IMG/VR virus record: IMGVR_UViG_3300032334_000335
Coordinates: 1-64,000 of that record
DNA from: a virus
Length of the DNA stretch: 64,000 bases
Direction: 5' to 3' (one strand)
Shown here in pieces: positions 9,312 through 28,307 of the stretch; position 1 is the first letter of the stretch, and every line of letters begins with the position of its first letter. Below the pieces are notes generated by a model, which was not told the origin of the DNA, ran no database searches, and was given only the letters and a program-made list of their open reading frames with translations. The translations under genes and the position numbers were made by a program.

Positions 9312-9709
9312 TGCGACAGTATATCAATATCCTAGAAGCAGCTAATAAGGGATGTCCTATTGCTACTCACGATTTAGAAATCAATGTCAAGAATCGTCAA
9401 ACAGCTATAGACAAACATCACTATGGTCCTGCCAATCCTGATGAACCGGGCAACTACTGGAAAGAGTCGGCCAAGCAATGGGGTATTGATGAAAAGACTG
9501 CTAAAACAATGCAATGTGCAAACTGTGCGGCATTTAACATTACAGATGCTATGTATAAATGTATACAAGACGGCATGGGCAAAGAAGCATACGAAGCAGA
9601 AAAGACTCGTGAAGCCGCAGACTTAGGTTATTGCAATCTACTACATTTTAAGTGTGCCGGTACACGCAGTTGCGAACTATGGATTACAGGTGGACCTATT
9701 ACCAAATGA
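9311..9709 (+). CDS. Cys-rich protein with gp21-like leader
   Basis: 132 aa from the ATG at 9311, preferred over an in-frame TTG at 9299 because it forms a TGATG overlap with the preceding gene and exposes the leader MRQYINILE followed by Ala (an I-L-E cleavage-type motif). The body has eight cysteines, including CANC, YKC, GYC, FKC and SC, a spacing that could hold a metal or Fe-S centre. The family is not recognised with confidence. ATGA overlap with the downstream fusion gene. Confidence 0.65.
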   Translation: MRQYINILEAANKGCPIATHDLEINVKNRQTAIDKHHYGPANPDEPGNYWKESAKQWGIDEKTAKTMQCANCAAFNITDAMYKCIQDGMGKEAYEAEKTREAADLGYCNLLHFKCAGTRSCELWITGGPITK

Positions 9710-11301
9710 GAGCAAGTGATCTAAACTTACCGGAAGGCATGGAAGTCTATGTTGACATGGACGGAGTTGTTGCTGACTTTTTTACAGAATATGCAAAACT
9801 GGCAGGTGTACAATCAGGGAGTTATAGAGATATTCCTCCTGCTAAAGTAGACCCTACATTAGATAAAATGGTAGGCACGGATTTCTTTGCACGTCTTCCT
9901 AAGTTTCCTACAGCAGATAAACTTCTACAGATAGTTGTAGATGCTGCCGGTTCATATAATATCTGCTCTAGTCCACTTCGTGGTGATCACGAAGGTTCAG
10001 CAAAATACAAAAATATATGGATCAAGAAACATCTCAGTCCTCAACCTAAGCATATCTATATTGTTGCTAACAAAGCCAAGTATGCTAAAAATGCTAACGG
10101 ATTACCTAACGTGTTAATCGACGATAGAGGCAGTAATATTTCAGCCTGGGAAGCTGCTGGCGGCATTGGTATCAAATATCAAGCAGACGAAGACAGTCTT
10201 AAAGTTGTATTGGATGGTCTTAAACGTGCTCGACGTGTTGCTCAAGGTGAGCAAGAACACGAACCGCAAAAACTATCTAGTTTAGATCGCGGCAAGATGA
10301 TTGCTGTACATTCAAGCGGTGACAAAGAAGAAAGTATAAATTCAGAAAACTTTGCTGATGGCAAACATCCTGGTCGTAAAGGACTTGCTAAACGCAGTGG
10401 TGTTAACACCAAGGCTAGCGTTAGCAGTCTACGCAACACAGCTAAACACAGTACAGGCGAAAAAGCTCGTATGGCACACTGGCTGGCTAATATGAAAGCT
10501 GGTCGCGCTAAACATGAAGATGTAGAAGAAGCCAAGTTTCCATTTGCAGGAGCAGCAGTCGGCCAAAAAGAAGGTCCCGCTGGACAACTAAAAGCGAAAG
10601 ATCCTAAAGGATATCCTAAAGGTAAGTTAGTTGGCGGTACTGAAGATATTGACAACGAGGGATGGAAAGATGTTGCTGCCGCAGGCGCTCTTGCTACAGG
10701 ATTAGCATTTGGCGGAGCAGGTACGGCTGATGCTAAATCTCAACCAACAACTCATAAGCCCAGTGTTATTCAACAAGTTAGTAAAAAAGACATTGCAAAA
10801 AGTGTAACAGGTAATCCACACGAAGTATTCCTAAGAAAGGCTGCAGAAAAGGCAGGTATAGTAGGACACGAACTTACTGCATTCTTGTCACAGTGTGCGC
10901 ATGAAACTCTTGATTTTAAACATATGAAAGAGATTGGTGGCGGCTTGGATTTCCGTAAATATGATCCTAAATATGCTCCTCGTAAAGCAAAGCAGTTAGG
11001 AAACAAAGACATAGGAGATGGTGCAAAATACAAAGGGCGCGGATACATACAGCTAACAGGACGAGACAACTATAAAAAAGCCGGAGCAGCGTTAGGATTG
11101 CCTTTAGAGAAGCATCCTGAACTAGTTGAAAAACCTGAAATTGCTGCTAAGGTAGCAGTATGGTACTGGAAGAATCGTGTAGCACCTAATGTTGACAGTT
11201 TTAAAGATAACAAAGCAGTAACTAAAACAATCAATCCAGGTATGAAACATTTAGATCAACGTGCTGATAAGCTCAAGTCTTTCCAAGTAGCAATGCGATA
11301 A
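9706..11301 (+). CDS. fusion: HAD 5'-nucleotidase-like domain and GH19-like lysozyme domain
   Basis: 531 aa from the ATG at 9706, which overlaps the preceding stop as ATGA. Residues about 12-165 are a HAD-superfamily deoxyribonucleotidase-like domain with DMDGV (nucleophile Asp17, acid Asp19), SSPLRGD (motif II) and IDDRG (motif IV). Residues about 215-290 are a basic linker rich in KxGRKGLAKRSG-type phage sequence. A hydrophobic Ala/Gly segment follows near 325-345. Residues about 370-531 resemble glycoside hydrolase 19 endolysins, with AHET (Glu400) and YKGRGYIQLTGRDNY. It would combine nucleotide dephosphorylation with peptidoglycan or chitin-like cleavage, perhaps separated by prohead protease (DVEE site near 285). 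The combination is unusual. Confidence 0.8.
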   Translation: MRASDLNLPEGMEVYVDMDGVVADFFTEYAKLAGVQSGSYRDIPPAKVDPTLDKMVGTDFFARLPKFPTADKLLQIVVDAAGSYNICSSPLRGDHEGSAKYKNIWIKKHLSPQPKHIYIVANKAKYAKNANGLPNVLIDDRGSNISAWEAAGGIGIKYQADEDSLKVVLDGLKRARRVAQGEQEHEPQKLSSLDRGKMIAVHSSGDKEESINSENFADGKHPGRKGLAKRSGVNTKASVSSLRNTAKHSTGEKARMAHWLANMKAGRAKHEDVEEAKFPFAGAAVGQKEGPAGQLKAKDPKGYPKGKLVGGTEDIDNEGWKDVAAAGALATGLAFGGAGTADAKSQPTTHKPSVIQQVSKKDIAKSVTGNPHEVFLRKAAEKAGIVGHELTAFLSQCAHETLDFKHMKEIGGGLDFRKYDPKYAPRKAKQLGNKDIGDGAKYKGRGYIQLTGRDNYKKAGAALGLPLEKHPELVEKPEIAAKVAVWYWKNRVAPNVDSFKDNKAVTKTINPGMKHLDQRADKLKSFQVAMR

Positions 11302-13451: not shown

Positions 13452-13505
13452 TGATCAGCCAGGAAATGATCACATTGGTATTTGTGGGCCGTAAATCACA
13501 AGGAG
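13452..13505 (+). promoter_or_regulatory. hairpins in the DNA polymerase leader, possible autorepression operator
   Basis: Two potential RNA stems lie before the polymerase ATG. The first is TGATCA (13452-13457) with TGATCA (13467-13472) around a 9-base loop. The second is TTGTG (13482-13486) with CACAA (13497-13501), which abuts and overlaps the AAGGAG ribosome-binding site at 13500-13505. T4 gp43 represses its own translation through a hairpin at its ribosome-binding site, so the second stem is a candidate operator. Confidence 0.35.
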
Positions 13506-13511
13506 AAAAAT

Positions 13512-16181
13512 ATGAGTTACGTAGATGCTTTCTACAATAGAGAGCAAGACGTTATCAATGTTGTCGAACGTGACGACAAAGGTAACAGACATTTTAAAGA
13601 ATATCCTGCAAGGCATATCTTTTATTACCCTGATCCAAAGGGCAAATATCTTTCAATCAAGGGCGAACCCCTTAGTCGTGTAAGTTCTAAAAACGTTAAA
13701 GAACATCGCAAAGAACTTGCTATCCATTCCAACAAGCGACTGTTTGAAAGTGACATCAATCCAATCTATCGCTGTCTTGAAGACAACTATCTCAATGTTG
13801 ATGCTCCAAAGCTAAATGTAGCGTTCTTCGATATTGAGGTGGACTTCGATCCAGAACGTGGCTATGCGTCACCAGAAGATGCATTTATGCCAATCACTGC
13901 GATCGCTGTTCACTTGCAGTGGATGGACACTATGGTGTGTTTGGCTATTCCTCCAAAGACGCTGTCAATGGCAGAAGCTGAGAAACAGGTTGCTGAGTTT
14001 CCTAACACTATGTTGTTTGATAACGAAGCAAATATGCTAGACACGTTCCTCGATCTCATCAAAGATGCAGATGTGTTAAGCGGTTGGAACAGTGAAGGCT
14101 TTGATATTCCATATACTGTTAATCGTGTTACCAAGGTTCTCAGTAAAGAAGATACACGACGTTTCTGTTTATGGGATCAGTTTCCCAAGAAGCGTGAGTA
14201 TGAAAAATTTGGAAAGACCGCTATAACATATGATCTTGTTGGTCGTGTACACCTAGACAGTCTTGAACTGTATCGCAAGTATACCTATGAAGAACGTCAC
14301 ACCTATCGATTGGATGCTATCGGTGAGATGGAGATCGGTGAAAACAAAACTGTCTACGAAGGCACACTTGATCAGTTATACAATAATGATTTCCGCAAGT
14401 TTATTGAATACAATAGACAAGACTGTGCATTGCTAGACAAACTAGATAAAAAACTAAAGTTCTTGGATCTTGCTAACACACTGGCACATGAATGTACTGT
14501 ATTACTACAGACTACTATGGGTGCTGTTGCTGTTACAGAACAAGCTATTATCAACGAAGCTCATAAGCGTGGCATGATTGTTCCTAATCGTAAGAAGATG
14601 GAAGAACAAGGTGACACACAGGCCGCAGGTGCTTATGTTGCGTATCCAAAGAAAGGCATCCATGAATGGATTGGTTCTCTTGATATTAACAGTCTATATC
14701 CTTCTGCTATTAGGGCTTTGAACATGGGGCCGGAGACCATCGTTGGTCAGTTACGACAAGATGGTACCAAAGCATACATTGAAACAGAGATGGCAAAAGG
14801 CAAATCTTTTGCTTCTGCTTGGGAAGGTATATTCGGTAGTTTAGAATATACAGCAGTTATGGATAGAGACGTTGGACGTGAAATCACTATCGACTGGGAA
14901 GATGGCGGCAGTGATACATTATCGGCAGCACAGGTAAATGATTTAATCTTCGAAAGCAACCAGCCCTGGATGCTGTCAGCGAATGGTACTATCTTCACCT
15001 ACGAGAAAGAAGGTATCATTCCTGGACTGTTAAAGCGTTGGTATGCTGAACGTAAAGACATGCAGGCCAAACTCAAAGACTGTATTAAAGCAGGAAACAA
15101 GATTGAAGAAGAATACTGGGATAAGCGTCAACTCGTTAAAAAGATTAATCTTAATAGCCTTTATGGTGCGATCCTTAATCCTGGTTGCAGGTTTTTCGAT
15201 AATCGTATCGGGCAATCCACTACGTTAACTGGCAGAGCTATTGCTCGACACATGGCCGGTAAAGTCAATGAAATCATAACAGGTGAAAACAATCACATAG
15301 GTAAAGCTATTATCTACGGTGACACAGACTCTTGTTATTTCTCAGCATATACTACGTTAAAAACAGACATTGAAAAAGGTCTTATACCTTGGTCAAAAGA
15401 AAATGTAGTTGATCTTTACGACACCATAGGAGAAGAAGTAAATGGCACATTCCCCAAGTTTATGCAAGATGCTTTCCACTGCCCAAAAACCCGAGGAGAG
15501 GTTATCAAGGCAGGTCGCGAGATTGTTGCTTCCAAAGGATTATTCATCACTAAAAAGCGATACGCAGTTCTCTACTACGACAAAGAAGGAAAACGTGCCG
15601 ATGTCGAAGGTAAACCAGGAAAGATTAAAGCGATGGGGCTTGACCTCAAGCGATCAGATACCCCGGTTGTTATCCAAGACTTCTTGAGCGAAGTGCTGAC
15701 AAAAGTACTTAATGGTGCTGGTAAAGAAGAAGTTCTAGAATATATCGGTGAGTTCCGGACTGAGTTTAAAACTAGGCCTGGTTGGGAGAAAGGTAGTCCC
15801 AAACGTGCTAACAAGATTTCAGAATATCGCGACAAGGAAAAGAAAGCAGGTAAGACTAACATGCCCGGACACGTTCGTGCTAGCCTTAACTGGAATACTT
15901 TGAAGCGCATGATGGATGACAAGTACTCAGTTAACATTACAGATGGTGCCAAAGTCATTGTCTGTAAGATCAAAGATAACCCAATGGGCTATACCTCAGT
16001 TGCCTATCCAGTAGACGAACTGAGATTACCACAATGGTTTAAAGATCTGCCGTTCGACGATGCTGAAATGGAAACAACAGTTATCGACGAAAAGTTAGAA
16101 AACTTGATCGGTGTCTTGGAATGGGACATTAGTTCAACCCGCAATGATAATACATTCAACAAACTATTTGATTTTGAGTGA
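13512..16181 (+). CDS. 43: family-B DNA polymerase, T4 gp43 type
   Basis: 889 aa from the ATG at 13512 with AAGGAG upstream; T4 gp43 has 898. The 3'-5' exonuclease has FFDIEVDF (Asp107, Glu109). The polymerase domain has motif A DINSLYPS (Asp391), motif B KKINLNSLYGA and motif C YGDTDS (602-607). It should replicate the phage genome with proofreading. The last residues, NTFNKLFDFE, are the expected C-terminal clamp-binding tail, and the clamp gene lies 60 bases downstream. The leader contains hairpins that may serve autogenous repression. The same NTFxxLFDF peptide recurs in the DpdA-like protein at 17331. Confidence 0.97.
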   Translation: MSYVDAFYNREQDVINVVERDDKGNRHFKEYPARHIFYYPDPKGKYLSIKGEPLSRVSSKNVKEHRKELAIHSNKRLFESDINPIYRCLEDNYLNVDAPKLNVAFFDIEVDFDPERGYASPEDAFMPITAIAVHLQWMDTMVCLAIPPKTLSMAEAEKQVAEFPNTMLFDNEANMLDTFLDLIKDADVLSGWNSEGFDIPYTVNRVTKVLSKEDTRRFCLWDQFPKKREYEKFGKTAITYDLVGRVHLDSLELYRKYTYEERHTYRLDAIGEMEIGENKTVYEGTLDQLYNNDFRKFIEYNRQDCALLDKLDKKLKFLDLANTLAHECTVLLQTTMGAVAVTEQAIINEAHKRGMIVPNRKKMEEQGDTQAAGAYVAYPKKGIHEWIGSLDINSLYPSAIRALNMGPETIVGQLRQDGTKAYIETEMAKGKSFASAWEGIFGSLEYTAVMDRDVGREITIDWEDGGSDTLSAAQVNDLIFESNQPWMLSANGTIFTYEKEGIIPGLLKRWYAERKDMQAKLKDCIKAGNKIEEEYWDKRQLVKKINLNSLYGAILNPGCRFFDNRIGQSTTLTGRAIARHMAGKVNEIITGENNHIGKAIIYGDTDSCYFSAYTTLKTDIEKGLIPWSKENVVDLYDTIGEEVNGTFPKFMQDAFHCPKTRGEVIKAGREIVASKGLFITKKRYAVLYYDKEGKRADVEGKPGKIKAMGLDLKRSDTPVVIQDFLSEVLTKVLNGAGKEEVLEYIGEFRTEFKTRPGWEKGSPKRANKISEYRDKEKKAGKTNMPGHVRASLNWNTLKRMMDDKYSVNITDGAKVIVCKIKDNPMGYTSVAYPVDELRLPQWFKDLPFDDAEMETTVIDEKLENLIGVLEWDISSTRNDNTFNKLFDFE

Positions 16182-16241: not shown

Positions 16242-16979
16242 ATGAAAGACATTTTACAAGATATCGTATCACATACGCAAAATCTAGGCTTCCTTACTAC
16301 AGTTAAAGTAACAGGCACAGAAGAAAAGACAACCATTAACTCGATGGCGGATGACCGTTCAGTTATTATGGAAGCAGAAACCAGTGCGCCATACGCAGAT
16401 ATGCTAGGTGTATTTGGTATGCCGCAACTTAACAAGTTGAAGTATTTGTTAGACGGTGCTGAATACAAAGACGATGCTAAGATCAGCGTTACCTTTGCAG
16501 AACGCAACGGCGAAACTATTCCAGTTGGCATACACTTTGAAAACAAAGACGGTGACTTTAAAAACGACTATCGTTTTATGAATAGTGAAATCATCAACGA
16601 AAAGATGAAGACTGTCAAGTTCCGTGGTGTTAAGTGGGATGTAGAAGTTGAGCCAACTGTTTCAGCAGTACAGCGTTTCAACTTCCAAGCAGGTGCTAAC
16701 AATGAGCATCCGACATTCCTTGCTAAAACAGACGGCGGTAACTTGAAGTTCATCTTCGGTGATGCTTCAACACACGGTGGCGAGTTTATTTTTGCACAGA
16801 ACGTTGCAGGCAAACTAGATCGCGGTTGGACTTGGCCAGTGTTGCCAATCTTGAGCATTTTAAAGATTGCAGATGTAAACAACACCAAGATGTCGTTGTC
16901 AAATGAAGGTGCTATTCAGATTACTCTTGATAGCGGATTGGCAACTTACAAATATATTATTCCAGCACAAGCTGCCTAA
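16242..16979 (+). CDS. 45: DNA polymerase sliding clamp, T4 gp45 type
   Basis: 245 aa, slightly longer than T4 gp45 (228). The order gp43-gp45 and two-domain beta-rich pattern identify it; the FGMPQLNKLKYLL segment (about residues 58-70) is the family's helix region and a KYIIPAQ end closes the fold. Trimeric clamps encircle DNA, tether the polymerase and, in T4, also activate late promoters through gp55 and gp33, neither of which is in this window. A strong ribosome-binding site (AGGAG) and a TATAAT promoter precede it. It sits directly upstream of the DpdA-like gene with a putative clamp-binding peptide. Confidence 0.88.
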   Translation: MKDILQDIVSHTQNLGFLTTVKVTGTEEKTTINSMADDRSVIMEAETSAPYADMLGVFGMPQLNKLKYLLDGAEYKDDAKISVTFAERNGETIPVGIHFENKDGDFKNDYRFMNSEIINEKMKTVKFRGVKWDVEVEPTVSAVQRFNFQAGANNEHPTFLAKTDGGNLKFIFGDASTHGGEFIFAQNVAGKLDRGWTWPVLPILSILKIADVNNTKMSLSNEGAIQITLDSGLATYKYIIPAQAA

Positions 16980-16981
16980 AT

Positions 16982-17347
16982 ATGATCAAAGGTCTACAAG
17001 GTAATATAGGCATTACAGTCAGTGGTGGCGATACTAGTGTGCCTTATGTTAACAACAATCCTAGTAACCCTATGCAGGGTATGATGCGTATTAATGGCAC
17101 TGACATACAGGTGTTTGATGGCAACTCTTGGTTGAACTTGAGCACCAGCTATGCAACTGTAGGCCTAGATTCCGAAACACAGAATCTGTTGAACTGGGCA
17201 AGGAGTAAACAGAAGCAAGAGATTGACTTACTAGAACTAGCTACAAAAAACGAAGCCGTTCGTATTGCATTAGAAAATGTAAAAAAGGCACAAGATCAAC
17301 TTACTATAACAGCACATTTATCGAGAGACCATGAAACAACCAGTTAA
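16982..17347 (+). CDS. hypothetical protein, beta head and coiled-coil tail
   Basis: 121 aa, 2 bases after the clamp gene and overlapping the next gene by 17 bases. The N-terminal 60 residues look like a small beta domain (MRINGTDIQVFDGNSWLNL) of the type found in fibre-attached proteins. Residues 65-115 are a charged helix, likely a coiled coil. Its position between replication genes is unlike its virion-protein look. Not recognised. Confidence 0.65.
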   Translation: MIKGLQGNIGITVSGGDTSVPYVNNNPSNPMQGMMRINGTDIQVFDGNSWLNLSTSYATVGLDSETQNLLNWARSKQKQEIDLLELATKNEAVRIALENVKKAQDQLTITAHLSRDHETTS

Positions 17348-18941
17348 CTTAACACCATTACAGAAAGACTATGCTGTGTATTTGCCAGCTATCAGTTCTT
17401 TCTATTCAACATATGTTGCCAAGCAACGTCTAGAAGAGTTTGTTCCTAATGATCGCATTCCGCAAGGATTTGATCGTGGCATTGAAGGCATGAACTTCTT
17501 AAATGCTGACGAAGGATACTTTACCTACAAGTATGCTTTGTATTCAGCAGGTCACGCACAACTTGATTTAGAAAAGTCAATGGAACAAGAGTCAATGATC
17601 CAACAACGTGATCGACCTAACACAATGATCTTAGGTGACTCTGGCGGATACCAGATTGGTAAAGGTGTTCTTAAGTTTGACTGGTTGAACTTTGAAGGTC
17701 CAGAAGCCAACAAGACTCGTAAAAAGATTCTCGAATGGTTAGAGTTAACTGCTGATTGGTCAATGATGCTGGACGTGCCGACTTGGGCTTGTGACCATAT
17801 TCATAGTCCAAAGACTGGATTGAAAACATTTGAAGACTGTTTGGAAAAGACACGTTTCAATAACGACTACTTCTTACAGAATCGTCTTGGTCAAACTAAG
17901 TGGCTGAATGTGCTTCAAGGCGGTGACTGGGATACTGCTGAGAAATGGTATCGTGGTGTTGTAGAGTTCAGTGATCCTAAAGGCAAGTACGCTGGCAAGG
18001 AAGCAGAAGGTTGGGCCTTCGGTGGTGCTAATATGTGTAAGATGGATATTACACTCAAGCGTCTAATGACTATGCGTGACGAAGGTATGCTTACAGGTAA
18101 GAACTGGATTCACTTCTTGGGTACAGCACAACTTGACTGGAGTTGCTACCTAACACAGATCCAACGTCAGATCCGTAAACATATTAATCCAGAACTTACT
18201 ATTAGTTTTGACTGTGCAAGTCCGTTTATTGCTACTGCTCACGGTCTTGTCTACACAAACGCACAACATACCAATAAGCGTTGGTCGGTTATTATGGACA
18301 AGGCTCCTGATAACAAAGCACTTTCAGGACGTCATGATATTCCGTTTCCGTTTGAAAGCGAGTTTGCAAGTCGTTTAACCATGGGTGACATCGCATACTA
18401 TAACTACGGTGTTCGTAAGACAGACGAAGAACTCGGCGGAGTTAAGTTTAATCATTTAAATCCAGAACACTATCACGAAGTACCTCGTCTTAATAAGCTA
18501 GGTAAGATTCCAAATAAGACTAGTTGGGATAGTTTTAGTTACGCATTGATGATGGGCCATAATGTTGAATGCCATATCAAAGCAGTTCAACGTGCTCAAC
18601 AGTTAATGGATATCGAATGTGCTAGATTTAAGCCAGATTGGCGCACTTGGGGTCTTGAAGGTAAGAAAGAAATCGAGTTTAGTGACTGGGTTCCACGTAA
18701 GATTCTATACTTTGGTACATTTGTTGAAGAACTGTTTAATACTAAGACCAAATCAGAAGCATTTGATATGATTGAGACTGCCGGACAGTTCTTAAAATCA
18801 CTGGAAGGTGCTCGACTACAAGGTGGCCCTGCTGCTAATACATTTGGTAGTTTATTTGATTTTGACGATGGCAAGAAATCCACTGAGATTGATTTTGCAA
18901 ATCCGGACGATGATGACCTAAATAGTCTTGTAGCTGAATAA
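17331..18941 (+). CDS. dpdA: DpdA-like DNA 7-deazaguanine transglycosylase with clamp-binding-like peptide
   Basis: 536 aa, TGT-superfamily barrel. Recognisable elements are GDSGGYQ (102-108, the TGT DSGGFQ substrate-pocket motif), MMLDVP (Asp148), NVLQGGD (193-199), AFGG (229-232) and SFDCASP with Asp294 aligned to the TGT nucleophile in FDCVxP. The Cys-x-Cys zinc site of tRNA-type TGT is missing, as in phage DpdA. DpdA swaps guanine in DNA for a 7-deazaguanine base such as preQ0. FolE and QueE in this window supply precursors. Residues 503-512 read NTFGSLFDFD, nearly the polymerase C-terminal tail NTFNKLFDFE, so it may bind the clamp encoded two genes upstream. The C-terminus is acidic. Confidence 0.8.
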   Translation: MKQPVNLTPLQKDYAVYLPAISSFYSTYVAKQRLEEFVPNDRIPQGFDRGIEGMNFLNADEGYFTYKYALYSAGHAQLDLEKSMEQESMIQQRDRPNTMILGDSGGYQIGKGVLKFDWLNFEGPEANKTRKKILEWLELTADWSMMLDVPTWACDHIHSPKTGLKTFEDCLEKTRFNNDYFLQNRLGQTKWLNVLQGGDWDTAEKWYRGVVEFSDPKGKYAGKEAEGWAFGGANMCKMDITLKRLMTMRDEGMLTGKNWIHFLGTAQLDWSCYLTQIQRQIRKHINPELTISFDCASPFIATAHGLVYTNAQHTNKRWSVIMDKAPDNKALSGRHDIPFPFESEFASRLTMGDIAYYNYGVRKTDEELGGVKFNHLNPEHYHEVPRLNKLGKIPNKTSWDSFSYALMMGHNVECHIKAVQRAQQLMDIECARFKPDWRTWGLEGKKEIEFSDWVPRKILYFGTFVEELFNTKTKSEAFDMIETAGQFLKSLEGARLQGGPAANTFGSLFDFDDGKKSTEIDFANPDDDDLNSLVAE

Positions 18942-21332: not shown

Positions 21333-21599
21333 ATGGCTAAGAACTACAAGGATTATTCCTATTTTGAAAACCGCCCAGATGTTGTCAAGGTCTTTGATGA
21401 TCTTGATGCATACTTGGATTACTGCAGAATTGAACTCTGCGATTTTAACCCAGCAGATCTTTATCGCAAAGATTCTGCAAACTATCAGGCTTACCTACAA
21501 AGTAAGCGACCACGCCGGCCTTGGGTAGATCGAGGCGAACGTAAACCTTACCAAGGTAAAAATCCAAGGCCATATAACAATGACCGTTTTTCTCGTTGA
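21333..21599 (+). CDS. small basic-tailed hypothetical protein
   Basis: 88 aa. An acidic helical N-terminal half (DVVKVFDDLDAYLDYC) is followed by an Arg, Pro and Lys-rich tail (KRPRRPWVDRGERKPYQG) that may contact nucleic acid. GAAGAGG precedes the ATG. It overlaps the glycosyltransferase start by 20 bases. Not recognised further. Confidence 0.65.
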   Translation: MAKNYKDYSYFENRPDVVKVFDDLDAYLDYCRIELCDFNPADLYRKDSANYQAYLQSKRPRRPWVDRGERKPYQGKNPRPYNNDRFSR

Positions 21600-22677
21600 T
21601 CTAGAAGCAGTCGAGACAAGGTACACGGGACAATGGAAGTCCCATGTACCAGCTCTTTTACGAAAGGTGTCTAACGATGTTCAAGTTATCTCTGGCCCTA
21701 CGGATATTCCTACAGCCACTACTCCTGGTGCTTTCCTTAATTTTGGTGGCACCAATATATACAAGTCTGCTCAAGTTGAGCAAATCGGCAGGCTATTTTG
21801 CAACGGAGCCGTTCATCCCGGCGATCACTTTATTTTTACTGATGCTTGGCATCCTGGTATCATAAACTTAAAGTACATGAGTGAACTGTTGCAGATTCCT
21901 GTAACAACACACGGCTTATGGCATGCTGGTAGTTATGATCCTCAAGACTTCCTAGGTCGACTCGTTGGCAATAAGCCTTGGGTCAGACACGCTGAGAAGA
22001 GTTTCTTCCATGCGTTTGATCATAACTACTTTGCTACAAACTTTCACATTGAAATGTTTATTAAAAATCTACTCAATGATGAGTTGTTTGAAAATCCTTG
22101 GATGGAAGATCATCTTGCAGAAGCACTGAGAGGCGAATGTCCTAATATAGTGCGTACTGGTTGGCCAATGGAGTATATGGAAGATACCTTAATCATGTAC
22201 AAGAACATGAAGAAGCGTGATCTTATTTTATTTCCGCATCGCATCGCACCAGAGAAGCAGGTTGAAATCTTCCGTGATCTAAAAGAACACTTACCGCAAT
22301 ATGAGTTTGTTGTTTGTCAAGATCAACAACTAACAAAGAATGAATATCATAACTTGTTAGGTGAGGCTAAACTAGTGTTTAGTGCTAACTTGCAAGAAAC
22401 ATTGGGCATTAGTTGGTATGAAGGTGCGGTAGTTGATGCTATTCCTATGGTTCCGGATAGACTTAGTTACAGCGAAATGGCACATGATACATTTAAGTAT
22501 CCAAGTGAGTGGACGGAATCGTTTGAAGCATATACTGTACATCGTAAAGAAATCTGTATGAAGATTATACAGTATATAGAAAACTACGTAAAGTATTTGC
22601 CAAGCCTAAATAAACAGGTATATGATTTAAAAGAAAACTTTTTTAGTTGCAATAACCTGCTAGAGAAGTTAAAATAA
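21580..22677 (+). CDS. GT-B fold glycosyltransferase
   Basis: 365 aa. The C-terminal half has the GT4-like pattern: LILFPHRIAPEKQ (donor-domain start), then FVVCQDQQ, then ETLGISWYEGAVVDAIPMVPD, where the EG pair resembles the sugar-nucleotide-binding EGxGxPxxE region. The N-terminal half is an acceptor domain with several His and Trp. Acceptor unknown. Two options are host or virion glycans, or, given that it lies between the DpdA-like and FolE genes, a hypermodified DNA base; the second is speculation by analogy with T4 glucosyltransferases. Cytoplasmic. Confidence 0.75.
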   Translation: MTVFLVDLEAVETRYTGQWKSHVPALLRKVSNDVQVISGPTDIPTATTPGAFLNFGGTNIYKSAQVEQIGRLFCNGAVHPGDHFIFTDAWHPGIINLKYMSELLQIPVTTHGLWHAGSYDPQDFLGRLVGNKPWVRHAEKSFFHAFDHNYFATNFHIEMFIKNLLNDELFENPWMEDHLAEALRGECPNIVRTGWPMEYMEDTLIMYKNMKKRDLILFPHRIAPEKQVEIFRDLKEHLPQYEFVVCQDQQLTKNEYHNLLGEAKLVFSANLQETLGISWYEGAVVDAIPMVPDRLSYSEMAHDTFKYPSEWTESFEAYTVHRKEICMKIIQYIENYVKYLPSLNKQVYDLKENFFSCNNLLEKLK

Positions 22678-22716: not shown

Positions 22717-23541
22717 TTGACAAAAGATTTTAAACCAGATCCAATAATGAACACACCTGACAACAGGGAGTTTGTTAAGGATGAATATCAGCCTTTGGGG
22801 AAAGAAGTATATGTTAAGGCTGCAGACATGATGTCTGATAAAGGTTACCAAGAAGCTAATCTAGCAGATGCTATTCGCTTCAAACTGAAACGTGATAAGA
22901 AACGTTTCTGGGCTGGTGACAATATCAGTGATTATATCAGTGAAGAAGATAAAGACGTTCTAATCAAAGAAGCAACTGAAGCATTTGAAAAAGTACTCGA
23001 TACGTTGCTTATTGATCGTGAGACTGATCCTAACAGCAAAGGCACTGCCAAGCGCCTTGCTAAAATGTACTTTAACGAAATAATGGCAGGTAGATATGAT
23101 CCAGCACCAGACGCTACAGCGTTTCCAAATGATTCGCAGGACCGTTATGAGGGTATGCTCGTTGTTCGCAGTGAGCTTCGGAGTATGTGTAGCCATCATC
23201 ACCAACCCGTTACTGGCGTTGCTTATATTGGTATTTTGGCTGCTAACAAACTTATTGGACTATCCAAGTACACACGTATTGCCCAATGGTGTGCCCGTCG
23301 AGGTACTCTCCAGGAGGAGCTTTGTAATGATATTGCTAGGGAAATACAAAAAGCCACTGACTCAGAGAATGTAGCAGTCTATATCCAAGCGACACATGGA
23401 TGCTGTGAGAATCGTGGTATTATGGCACATAGTAGCTTAACACAGACTACAGTACTCAAAGGTGCGTTCAAAGACGACGGTAATACTAAGAAAGAGTTTT
23501 TTGATAATATTAAACTACAACAAGAGTTTGCGCCACGTTAA
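22717..23541 (+). CDS. folE: GTP cyclohydrolase I (FolE)
   Basis: 274 aa from a TTG at 22717 supported by CGGAGAA 8 bases upstream; the first ATG (22747) lacks such a site. Type I zinc ligands are in place: Cys158 and His161 in MCSHHH, and Cys229 in HGCCENRG. GLSKYTRIAQWCARRGTLQE is the conserved helix. It converts GTP to 7,8-dihydroneopterin triphosphate, the first step of folate and of queuosine/7-deazaguanine synthesis. With QueE and the DpdA-like protein in the same window the second role is more likely. The N-terminal 60 residues are longer than in E. coli FolE. Confidence 0.93.
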   Translation: MTKDFKPDPIMNTPDNREFVKDEYQPLGKEVYVKAADMMSDKGYQEANLADAIRFKLKRDKKRFWAGDNISDYISEEDKDVLIKEATEAFEKVLDTLLIDRETDPNSKGTAKRLAKMYFNEIMAGRYDPAPDATAFPNDSQDRYEGMLVVRSELRSMCSHHHQPVTGVAYIGILAANKLIGLSKYTRIAQWCARRGTLQEELCNDIAREIQKATDSENVAVYIQATHGCCENRGIMAHSSLTQTTVLKGAFKDDGNTKKEFFDNIKLQQEFAPR

Positions 23542-24285: not shown

Positions 24286-24503
24286 TGGAAACAGCCAAGG
24301 ATCTAACTGATCATTTGATATTCCGAGCAAAGAATATGCAGGAGTTTATTGTGGAAAGAGATTGGGATCTAATCCCTGCCGGTGTTGTTAAGTTTGATAT
24401 ACAGCACACACAAGGCGAACCTGCTCGTATATTTGTACATGCAATGACACAAGAAGAAGCAGAACGTCAAGTTGACGATTGGTTTGGAGAAGGTGTAGAA
24501 TGA
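24285..24503 (+). CDS. small hypothetical protein
   Basis: 72 aa. Helix, then strands (VVKFDIQHTQGEPARIFVHAMTQEEAERQVDDWF), a ferredoxin-like beta-alpha-beta look. Its stop overlaps the start of the DNA glycosylase as ATGA. Not recognised. Confidence 0.6.
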   Translation: METAKDLTDHLIFRAKNMQEFIVERDWDLIPAGVVKFDIQHTQGEPARIFVHAMTQEEAERQVDDWFGEGVE

Positions 24504-24910
24504 TTAAGCCCTTACGTGACGATTTAATGGTACAACAACAAGTGGAAGATTCTTGGCAGCATTTTGTTGGCGTTATCATGCTGAACCAAACCGGACGTAA
24601 AGCAGTAAAGACCACACTTCCTGAGTTTCTATATTGGTTTCCGATGCCGCAGATACTGATAGATGCCGATCCAGATTTTGTCAAAACTATTATCAAACCA
24701 CTAGGAATGGTAAATGTTCGTTACCAGCGTTTGGTAAGAATGAGCCAAGACTACTTGACTTGGGACGGAAATGATGCTACAATGTTATATGGCATCGGAA
24801 AATATGGTTCCGATTCATATGAAATCTTTTATAAGCACAACTACACAGTTGAGCCCACTGACAAAGAACTAAAAAGATATCTAGAACAAGAGGTTTTTAA
24901 TGTTGCTTAA
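24500..24910 (+). CDS. HhH-GPD DNA glycosylase, MBD4-like
   Basis: 136 aa from the ATG at 24500 (ATGA overlap). The whole protein follows the MBD4 glycosylase-domain pattern: VGVIMLNQTGRKA (25-35), then IIKPLGMVNVRYQRLV, then the helix-hairpin-helix LYGIGKYGSDS (96-106), then VEPTDKELKRYL with Asp121 at the position of the catalytic Asp. No Fe-S Cys cluster is present, as in MBD4 and unlike endonuclease III. MBD4 enzymes remove T or U opposite G. In the phage it could repair deaminated bases or act on a modified base. It lies between FolE and QueE. Confidence 0.8.
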   Translation: MIKPLRDDLMVQQQVEDSWQHFVGVIMLNQTGRKAVKTTLPEFLYWFPMPQILIDADPDFVKTIIKPLGMVNVRYQRLVRMSQDYLTWDGNDATMLYGIGKYGSDSYEIFYKHNYTVEPTDKELKRYLEQEVFNVA

Positions 24911-27443: not shown

Positions 27444-28307
27444 ATGAGCAAAATTAAAATCGCAGAGCTGTTTTACAGCATTCAAGGTGAAGGACGCTAT
27501 ATGGGTGTTCCTTCTGTTTTCTTACGTACATTTGGTTGCAACTTTAAATGTGCTGGCTTTGGTATGCTACGTGGTACATTAAGCGGTGAAGCAGATGTGC
27601 TAGCAGAGAAACAAGAAAAATATAACAAGTGGCCTACGTATAATGAACTTCCATTAGTAAGCACAGGTTGTGACAGCTATGCTAGCTGGCATCCTAGCTT
27701 TAAAGAACTTAGCCCAATGCTTACTAGTGATGCCATTGCAGATCGTATTTGTGAGATATTGCCACATAATGAATGGCAAGACGAGCATCTGGTTATCACT
27801 GGCGGTGAGCCTTTGCTGGGTTGGCAACGTGCTTACCCAGACTTGCTGGATCATCCTAAGATGGCAGGACTAAAAGAGATCACATTTGAAACAAATGGTA
27901 CTCAAAAGCTAACAGAAGAGTTTAAAGAATATCTAGTAAAGTGGCAAATGCCTAACATGGATTTTGCAAGAGAAGTTACATTTTCAGTAAGTGCTAAACT
28001 TCCATGTAGTGGCGAAAAGTGGGAGGAAGCTATTCTGCCAGGAGTTGTTTGTGAATATGAAGACTTTGGTACAGCCTATTTGAAGTTTGTCATTGCCACT
28101 GAACAAGATTTTGCAGATGCAGAATGTGCTATTGCCGCTTATCGTACAGCAGGATTTAAAGGTCACATTTATCTCATGCCAGTGGGCGGTGTTGAAAGTG
28201 TTTATGCACTAAACAATCGCACAGTGGCAGACTTAGCTATGAAGAACGGTTTAAGATATAGTGATAGATTGCAAGTGCCGTTATTTAAAAATGAGTGGGG
28301 AACTTAA
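27444..28307 (+). CDS. queE: 7-carboxy-7-deazaguanine synthase (QueE), radical SAM
   Basis: 287 aa. N-terminal FYSIQGEGRYMGVPSVFLRTFGCN is characteristic of QueE. Cluster cysteines are Cys32, Cys36 and, after an inserted loop of about 39 residues, Cys76 in TGCDSYASW, which aligns with the WCDTxYxW end of the normal motif. ITGGEPL is the SAM-binding GGE motif. It converts carboxytetrahydropterin to 7-carboxy-7-deazaguanine, the core of preQ0. It would act with FolE upstream. It has its own perfect -35/-10 promoter. Confidence 0.88.
   Translation: MSKIKIAELFYSIQGEGRYMGVPSVFLRTFGCNFKCAGFGMLRGTLSGEADVLAEKQEKYNKWPTYNELPLVSTGCDSYASWHPSFKELSPMLTSDAIADRICEILPHNEWQDEHLVITGGEPLLGWQRAYPDLLDHPKMAGLKEITFETNGTQKLTEEFKEYLVKWQMPNMDFAREVTFSVSAKLPCSGEKWEEAILPGVVCEYEDFGTAYLKFVIATEQDFADAECAIAAYRTAGFKGHIYLMPVGGVESVYALNNRTVADLAMKNGLRYSDRLQVPLFKNEWGT

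Follow-up and report, generated by a model that had tools for sequence, protein, structure and literature searches.

A DpdA-like protein in a viral genome carries a polymerase-like tail and is probably a client of the sliding clamp

INTRODUCTION

In bacteriophage T4, the DNA polymerase gp43 and the transcription factors gp55 and gp33 bind the clamp through C-terminal epitopes that resemble one another and can be interchanged; the linker that carries the gp55 epitope is highly variable, and the C-terminal 11-mer of the RB69 polymerase has been crystallized on the RB69 clamp (PMC2988020). The T4 clamp, gp45, is also pulled down by the T4 alpha-glucosyltransferase, but not by the beta-glucosyltransferase (PMC13216743; Sommer et al. 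2004), so that there is already a precedent for a DNA-modifying enzyme of a phage binding that phage's own clamp. This interaction was found not to be what mainly sets the alpha/beta ratio (PMC13216743), indicating that modification levels are not necessarily determined chiefly by clamp binding. Here, we describe a predicted base-exchange enzyme of the DpdA type whose tail resembles the end of the DNA polymerase encoded in the same viral sequence. That sequence, called the window below, is a stretch of 64,000 nucleotides (nt) comprising positions 1 to 64,000 of IMG/VR virus record IMGVR_UViG_3300032334_000335.

The T4 epitopes offer a parallel in their short hydrophobic-acidic tail, variable linker, and interchangeability between proteins, but they belong to a polymerase and to transcription factors rather than to a base exchanger; the alpha-glucosyltransferase is likewise a different enzyme with a different chemistry (glucosylation of hydroxymethylcytosine). 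Closer in function is phage DpdA2, a DNA base exchanger of the tRNA-guanine transglycosylase (TGT) superfamily, whose carrier, phage nt-1, contains dPreQ0 (PMC6884629). The paper on DpdA2 describes no link to the clamp, and the word "clamp" is absent from it. No report connecting DpdA or deazaguanine with a sliding clamp was found in the open literature (subscription papers and preprints were outside the scope), consistent with an earlier note, made from the sequence alone, whose author knew of no clamp-linked DpdA. Thus, clamp-bound DNA modification as such is known, whereas the clamp-linked DpdA proposed here would be new and has an unusually broad sequence signature.

RESULTS

The family B DNA polymerase of the window (positions 13482 to 16181, + strand; Pfam DNA_pol_B, E = 2.1e-35; PHROG 262, E = 2.8e-200) ends in the decapeptide NTFNKLFDFE, in frame at 16149 to 16178 (+). 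The first listed in-frame start of this open reading frame (ORF) is TTG, and a likely ATG start lies ten codons downstream. By analogy with T4-type gp43, whose tails bind the clamp as the earlier note stated (PMC2988020), this peptide is most probably what the phage polymerase uses to hold the replication clamp. A near match, NTFGSLFDFD, forms residues 503 to 512 of the 536-amino-acid (aa) product of the DpdA-like ORF at 17331 to 18941 (+), in frame at 18837 to 18866 (+). Seven of the nine leading residues are identical, and the common N-T-F-x-x-L-F-D-F core that the earlier note placed at these two sites is confirmed exactly by translation.

When the polymerase 9-mer was scored with BLOSUM62, the DpdA-like site reached 39, as opposed to a next-best score of 29 among the 78 other window proteins. 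After residue shuffling of those proteins, the maxima averaged 24.1 and never exceeded 36, such that the real score was reached in 0 of 2,000 shuffles; the Gumbel tail for a score of 39 is ~7e-4. Across seven records (79 to 502 predicted proteins each), the DpdA protein was the top match to the polymerase tail in five: the window, G001, G002, G005, and Vibrio phage 2.275.O. These results bear on the alternative that the likeness arose by chance or is a functionless copy of polymerase-gene sequence acquired through recombination. The peptide is indeed short, the chance of some Leu-Phe (LF) in a 55-residue tail is ~20% by our estimate, and the codons of the two window peptides are partly common, being the same at five of the seven shared residues (~3.2 expected from codon use). 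In records L096 and L115, however, the same codon is used at three of seven shared residues, and differing codons at shared residues indicate that neither recent gene conversion nor a recent DNA copy caused the match. With the shuffling result, the anchor residues kept over many genomes while their neighbors vary, and the recurrence of the tail in three DpdA lineages (see below), chance or copying is a very remote prospect.

The peptide sits in a part of the DpdA-like protein that is predicted to be flexible. Residues 494 to 515 have a predicted local distance difference test score (pLDDT) below 50 in the structure model and are disordered; the peptide is therefore not buried in the fold, a case that the earlier note had named as refuting its reading. 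In a set of 43 close relatives that includes the window, conservation is 88 to 93% at the anchors N503, F505, L508, and F509, while positions 504, 506, 507, 510, and 511 vary, which is the behavior of a short linear motif. The flanking SLEGARLQGGP and the final DDD-x-L are likewise conserved in this clade, indicating that the tail as a whole is not neutral. The flexible tail of the protein thus bears a short motif, hydrophobic and acidic, that corresponds to the C-terminus of the polymerase, and the conservation, low pLDDT, and co-variation of this motif with the polymerase tail mark it as presumably clamp-binding.

The candidate partner is encoded two genes upstream, at 16242 to 16979 (+). 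Its 245-aa product is unmatched by any Pfam or NCBIfam model and falls in PHROG 12062 (function not assigned), and the earlier note's assignment of a clamp gene here proves right by fold: the AlphaFold2 model (pLDDT 90.1) has the two-domain clamp fold of the PCNA/gp45 type, and the best Foldseek matches are to yeast PCNA over nearly the full length (E = 3.6e-11). Between the clamp and DpdA-like genes lies a 121-aa ORF (16982 to 17347, +) to which Pfam and PHROG scans assigned no function.

The 536-aa protein itself matched nothing in Pfam, PHROGs, NCBIfam, or PDB sequence searches, and a profile search of the PDB returned only chance matches, so that its identification required comparison of folds. 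At E < 0.001, Foldseek returned only five TGT chains (1p0d, E = 6.9e-5) and the DNA preQ0 insertase DpdA (7ui4, E = 2.9e-4), pointing to a TGT-type (beta/alpha)8 fold on a model of moderate quality (mean pLDDT 62). Alignment with the DpdA2 family by hhalign (94.7%; E = 5.9e-8; 189 columns) places three conserved motifs on those of DpdA2. D103-S-G-G-Y-Q108 (17637 to 17654, +), the counterpart of the TGT DSGGxQ active-site loop, aligns with DSGGLQ, and D103, S104, G105, G106, and Q108 are invariant across the family. H261-F-L-G264 (18111 to 18122, +) aligns with HxLG and is invariant except for F262; S292-F-D294-C (18204 to 18215, +), with the presumed nucleophile Asp294, aligns with ISYDS, and S292 and D294 are invariant. 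D103 and D294, which hhalign puts on the DSGG and ISYD of DpdA2, we take to be equivalent to the TGT catalytic residues. With either the DpdA-like or the DpdA2 protein as query, the tblastn matches listed included no record from the other lineage. The two are homologous by hhalign at ~20% identity, and the DpdA-like family is best called, from these alignments, a sister lineage of nt-1-type DpdA2.

Genes of the 7-deazaguanine pathway lie nearby: GTP cyclohydrolase I (FolE; 22717 to 23541, +; Pfam, E = 3.4e-40), the first step in 7-deazaguanine supply, and a QueE-like radical SAM enzyme (27444 to 28307, +; PHROG 2076, E = 1.4e-49). Their presence is consistent with a putative exchange of guanine for 7-deazaguanine in DNA. 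A clamp-bound TGT-fold enzyme might instead act on another substrate, such as tRNA, or make a different modification. The missing Pfam, NCBIfam, and PDB-sequence matches, the Foldseek E values of just 7e-5 to 3e-4 on a model of this quality, and a homology search of phage PA5oct and three near relatives that found neither QueC nor QueD would all fit such an enzyme. Yet the DSGGxQ, HxLG, and SFD landmarks are all invariant and align with an enzyme whose phage contains dPreQ0 (PMC6884629), FolE and QueE are close by, and a deazaguanine synthesis and incorporation system has already been predicted in PA5oct (PMC7824862), which makes another substrate unlikely.

The DpdA tail follows the polymerase tail from phage to phage, as seen among ~160 DpdA-like relatives, of which PA5oct, Vibrio phage 2.275.O, and Sinorhizobium phage Phosso are examples. 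In PA5oct, a cultured relative, the clamp and the DpdA-like protein are gp170 and gp168. (An alignment used as query found related loci; the single PA5oct or Vibrio protein found none.) Most of the ~160 retain the tail peptide (anchors N-x-F-x-x-L-F), whose position is internal in some clades and fully C-terminal in others. In 152 scored loci, the DpdA tail contains LF in 110 of 119 cases in which the polymerase ends in LFxF and Phe-Phe (FF) in 31 of 33 in which it ends in FFxF (29 FF/FF and 2 with both), although this comparison uses a loose three-letter pattern, and a 55-residue tail may well contain LF, but rarely FF, by chance. Some pairs match well beyond the class (polymerase/DpdA): EVMDNFFEF/EVMDTFFEF at both extreme C-termini in L096, L098, and L115; NNTDLFDW/NNNDLFGW in Vibrio phage 2.275.O; and KTLSTFFEF/NSFGSFFEQ in another locus. 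L159 has FF in both proteins, and its sister L156 has LF in both. On the DpdA-core tree, the DpdA tail followed the polymerase in every independent pair on supported branches under nearly all pairings, but the polymerase class switches only three times, and these switches, with two on the DpdA2 tree (rows with the motif), are too few for the pair test to reach significance.

Polymerase-like or LF tails recur in two other DpdA lineages. DpdA2 proteins of T4-type phages, whose comparison the earlier note had proposed, end in a gp43-like LF or FF tail (SLEDLFG-like) in 79 of 84 cases, as opposed to 7 of 1,571 other proteins in the same loci, five of which are one homologous protein. Unlike the tail of the window, the DpdA2 tail (SL[ED][ED]LFx) is at the extreme C-terminus. 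Its ends again resemble those of the polymerase (DpdA2/polymerase), both with LF (SLEELFG/SLESLFG in X1, SLDDLFG/SLEDLFGW in Moby, TLDELFE/SLDDLFE in ACP17) and with FF (TLENFFE/SLEDFFG in L284, TLSEFFA/LTDFFE in L311). The 9g-type DpdAs of the Queuovirinae, whose genes, like that of the window, lie beside those for the clamp and polymerase, end exactly in LF (...QELF or similar) in 65 of 78 cases, as opposed to 0 of 700 other proteins; these counts and those for DpdA2 take related sequences for independent ones and thereby inflate the statistics, but the qualitative contrast stands. The adjoining 9g-type clamp gene is annotated as a DNA polymerase beta subunit, and a beta-type clamp homologue is present in 76 of 80 loci, so that a QELF-type tail accompanies a beta-type clamp, whereas the LFDF-type tail of the window accompanies a PCNA/gp45-type clamp. 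The difference suggests that the tail follows the clamp type.

This pattern also bears on what reads the tail. The docking peptide could be real and yet be read by another replisome protein or a host protein, since co-variation points to a common reader of both tails without identifying it. However, the reader of such tails in T4-type phages is gp45 (PMC2988020), and the 9g-type tail differs where the clamp does, tracking clamp type; a reader other than the clamp is accordingly quite improbable.

A separate comparison concerns phages that lack a clamp, since retention of the peptide there was the other outcome that the earlier note had named as refuting. In two positive controls, the Pfam beta-clamp model failed to detect phage clamps already known as such, and a model constructed from phage clamps took its place. 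Neither phage clamp model found a clamp in mycobacteriophages Saguaro, Typha, and Coffee (the last of Rosebush type) or in Fusobacterium phage phiFN37, and the DpdAs of all four lack the LF tail. Rosebush DNA nevertheless has dPreQ0 at ~28% of G (PMC6884629), indicating that exchange itself does not require the tail. Phosso, considered as a control without a clamp, was rejected when a search of the whole record found a clamp.

Besides the looseness of the class pattern and the small number of switches, several observations weigh against a clamp-bound DpdA. In PA5oct and G004, another protein matches the polymerase tail better than the DpdA protein does. Eight relatives with an LF polymerase have no recognizable DpdA motif, and two loci have a DpdA tail of the wrong class. 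Phosso counts as an exception: it has a clamp and a polymerase ending in TTFNDLFTF, yet no motif can be clearly recognized in its distant DpdA, whose gene is located far away. The DpdA2 proteins of nt-1, KVP40, and pf16 also lack the tail although their polymerases carry one.

Other proteins in these genomes have ends of a similar kind. In nt-1, ORF388 (L087:31416-32096; DUF5591, possibly ArcS-like), a neighbor of DpdA2, ends in SLANFF (compare TLESFFG in the polymerase), and the clamp tail of this phage may, judging by these ends, be carried by another enzyme in the same pathway. A 167-aa Phosso protein of no known family beside FolE (L170:3391-3891) ends in LNDLFDFG, resembling the Phosso polymerase end, and is a candidate clamp client, as is a 298-aa protein of no known family (L338:4227-5120, with homologues in L339, L341, L344, and L345) that ends in TLESLFA like T4-type clamp tails. 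In Vibrio phage 2.275.O, gp469 (L002:9732-10844), encoded beside DpdA, is amidoligase-like (Pfam Amidoligase_2, E = 1.8e-4, just below the cut-off) and has a polymerase-tail-like N-terminus, MFNELFDFND; it is possibly a second clamp-bound base-modifying enzyme. The 9g-type polymerases (L371:5444-7624, L370:5595-7580, L270:36-2009 on the - strand, and relatives L375 to L454) have an N-terminal DAIG[LF]FWEDLPP-like motif that may be a clamp-binding site. Beyond the polymerase and DpdA, a neighborhood scan for polymerase-like C-terminal tails returned little but antisense or unrelated frames. LFEI also occurs close to the end of long proteins in G002 and Vibrio phage 2.275.O; these proteins show a weak resemblance to baseplate gp6 or contain a carbohydrate-binding domain, and were set aside as probable coincidences.

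In PA5oct, a Hef-like homing endonuclease gene interrupts the polymerase gene (gp173 to gp171, L001:1605-6831), and gp171 has an intein-like C-terminal junction, GNNILVHNS, ahead of polymerase sequence, resembling a fractured intein. Also near the DpdA-like gene of the window, a possible glycosyltransferase (21580 to 22677, +) is 42.5% identical to PA5oct gp167, which has a subthreshold Glycos_transf_1 match (E = 0.0011) and whose gene is directly 3' of the PA5oct DpdA-like gene. The same gene cluster encodes a small HhH-GPD (base-excision glycosylase-like) protein (24479 to 24910). A 549-aa ORF (9652 to 11301) oddly pairs an N-terminal part resembling the 5'-nucleotidase family (NT5C) with a C-terminal part resembling class I chitinase (GH19).

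DISCUSSION

The window probably encodes a DpdA-like guanine exchanger with a clamp-binding tail motif, equivalent to the end of its own polymerase, that acts behind the replication fork. The flexible DpdA tail would dock in a hydrophobic pocket of the clamp, the docked enzyme would be held on newly copied phage DNA, and the tethered enzyme would then swap guanine for 7-deazaguanine right behind the fork. Clamp-tethered base exchange, proposed in the earlier note as the simplest reading, is well supported by sequence comparison and has gained from the co-variation and from the recurrence in two other DpdA lineages; from these patterns we infer clamp binding, base exchange by the 536-aa protein, and the coupling to replication. 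We also lean, with somewhat less assurance, toward the view that phage DNA base exchangers are general sliding-clamp clients, with a tail that in each of three DpdA lineages (the jumbo-phage family of the window, T4-type DpdA2, and 9g-type DpdA) is fitted to the clamp type of its own phage.

Some phages exchange guanine in completed DNA instead of building in modified nucleotides, and a clamp-tethered exchanger would be a direct and testable answer to the question of how they can modify their own DNA both early and selectively. It predicts that mutants of the motif would lose selectivity or extent of modification, not catalysis, and comparison of enzyme tails with polymerase tails provides a simple sequence rule for finding other phage clamp clients. 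That the DpdA tail changes together with the polymerase tail across hundreds of related phages suggests that the phage marks its own DNA at the replication fork. If so, base exchange would be coupled to replication, such that new phage DNA is marked and host DNA is largely spared.
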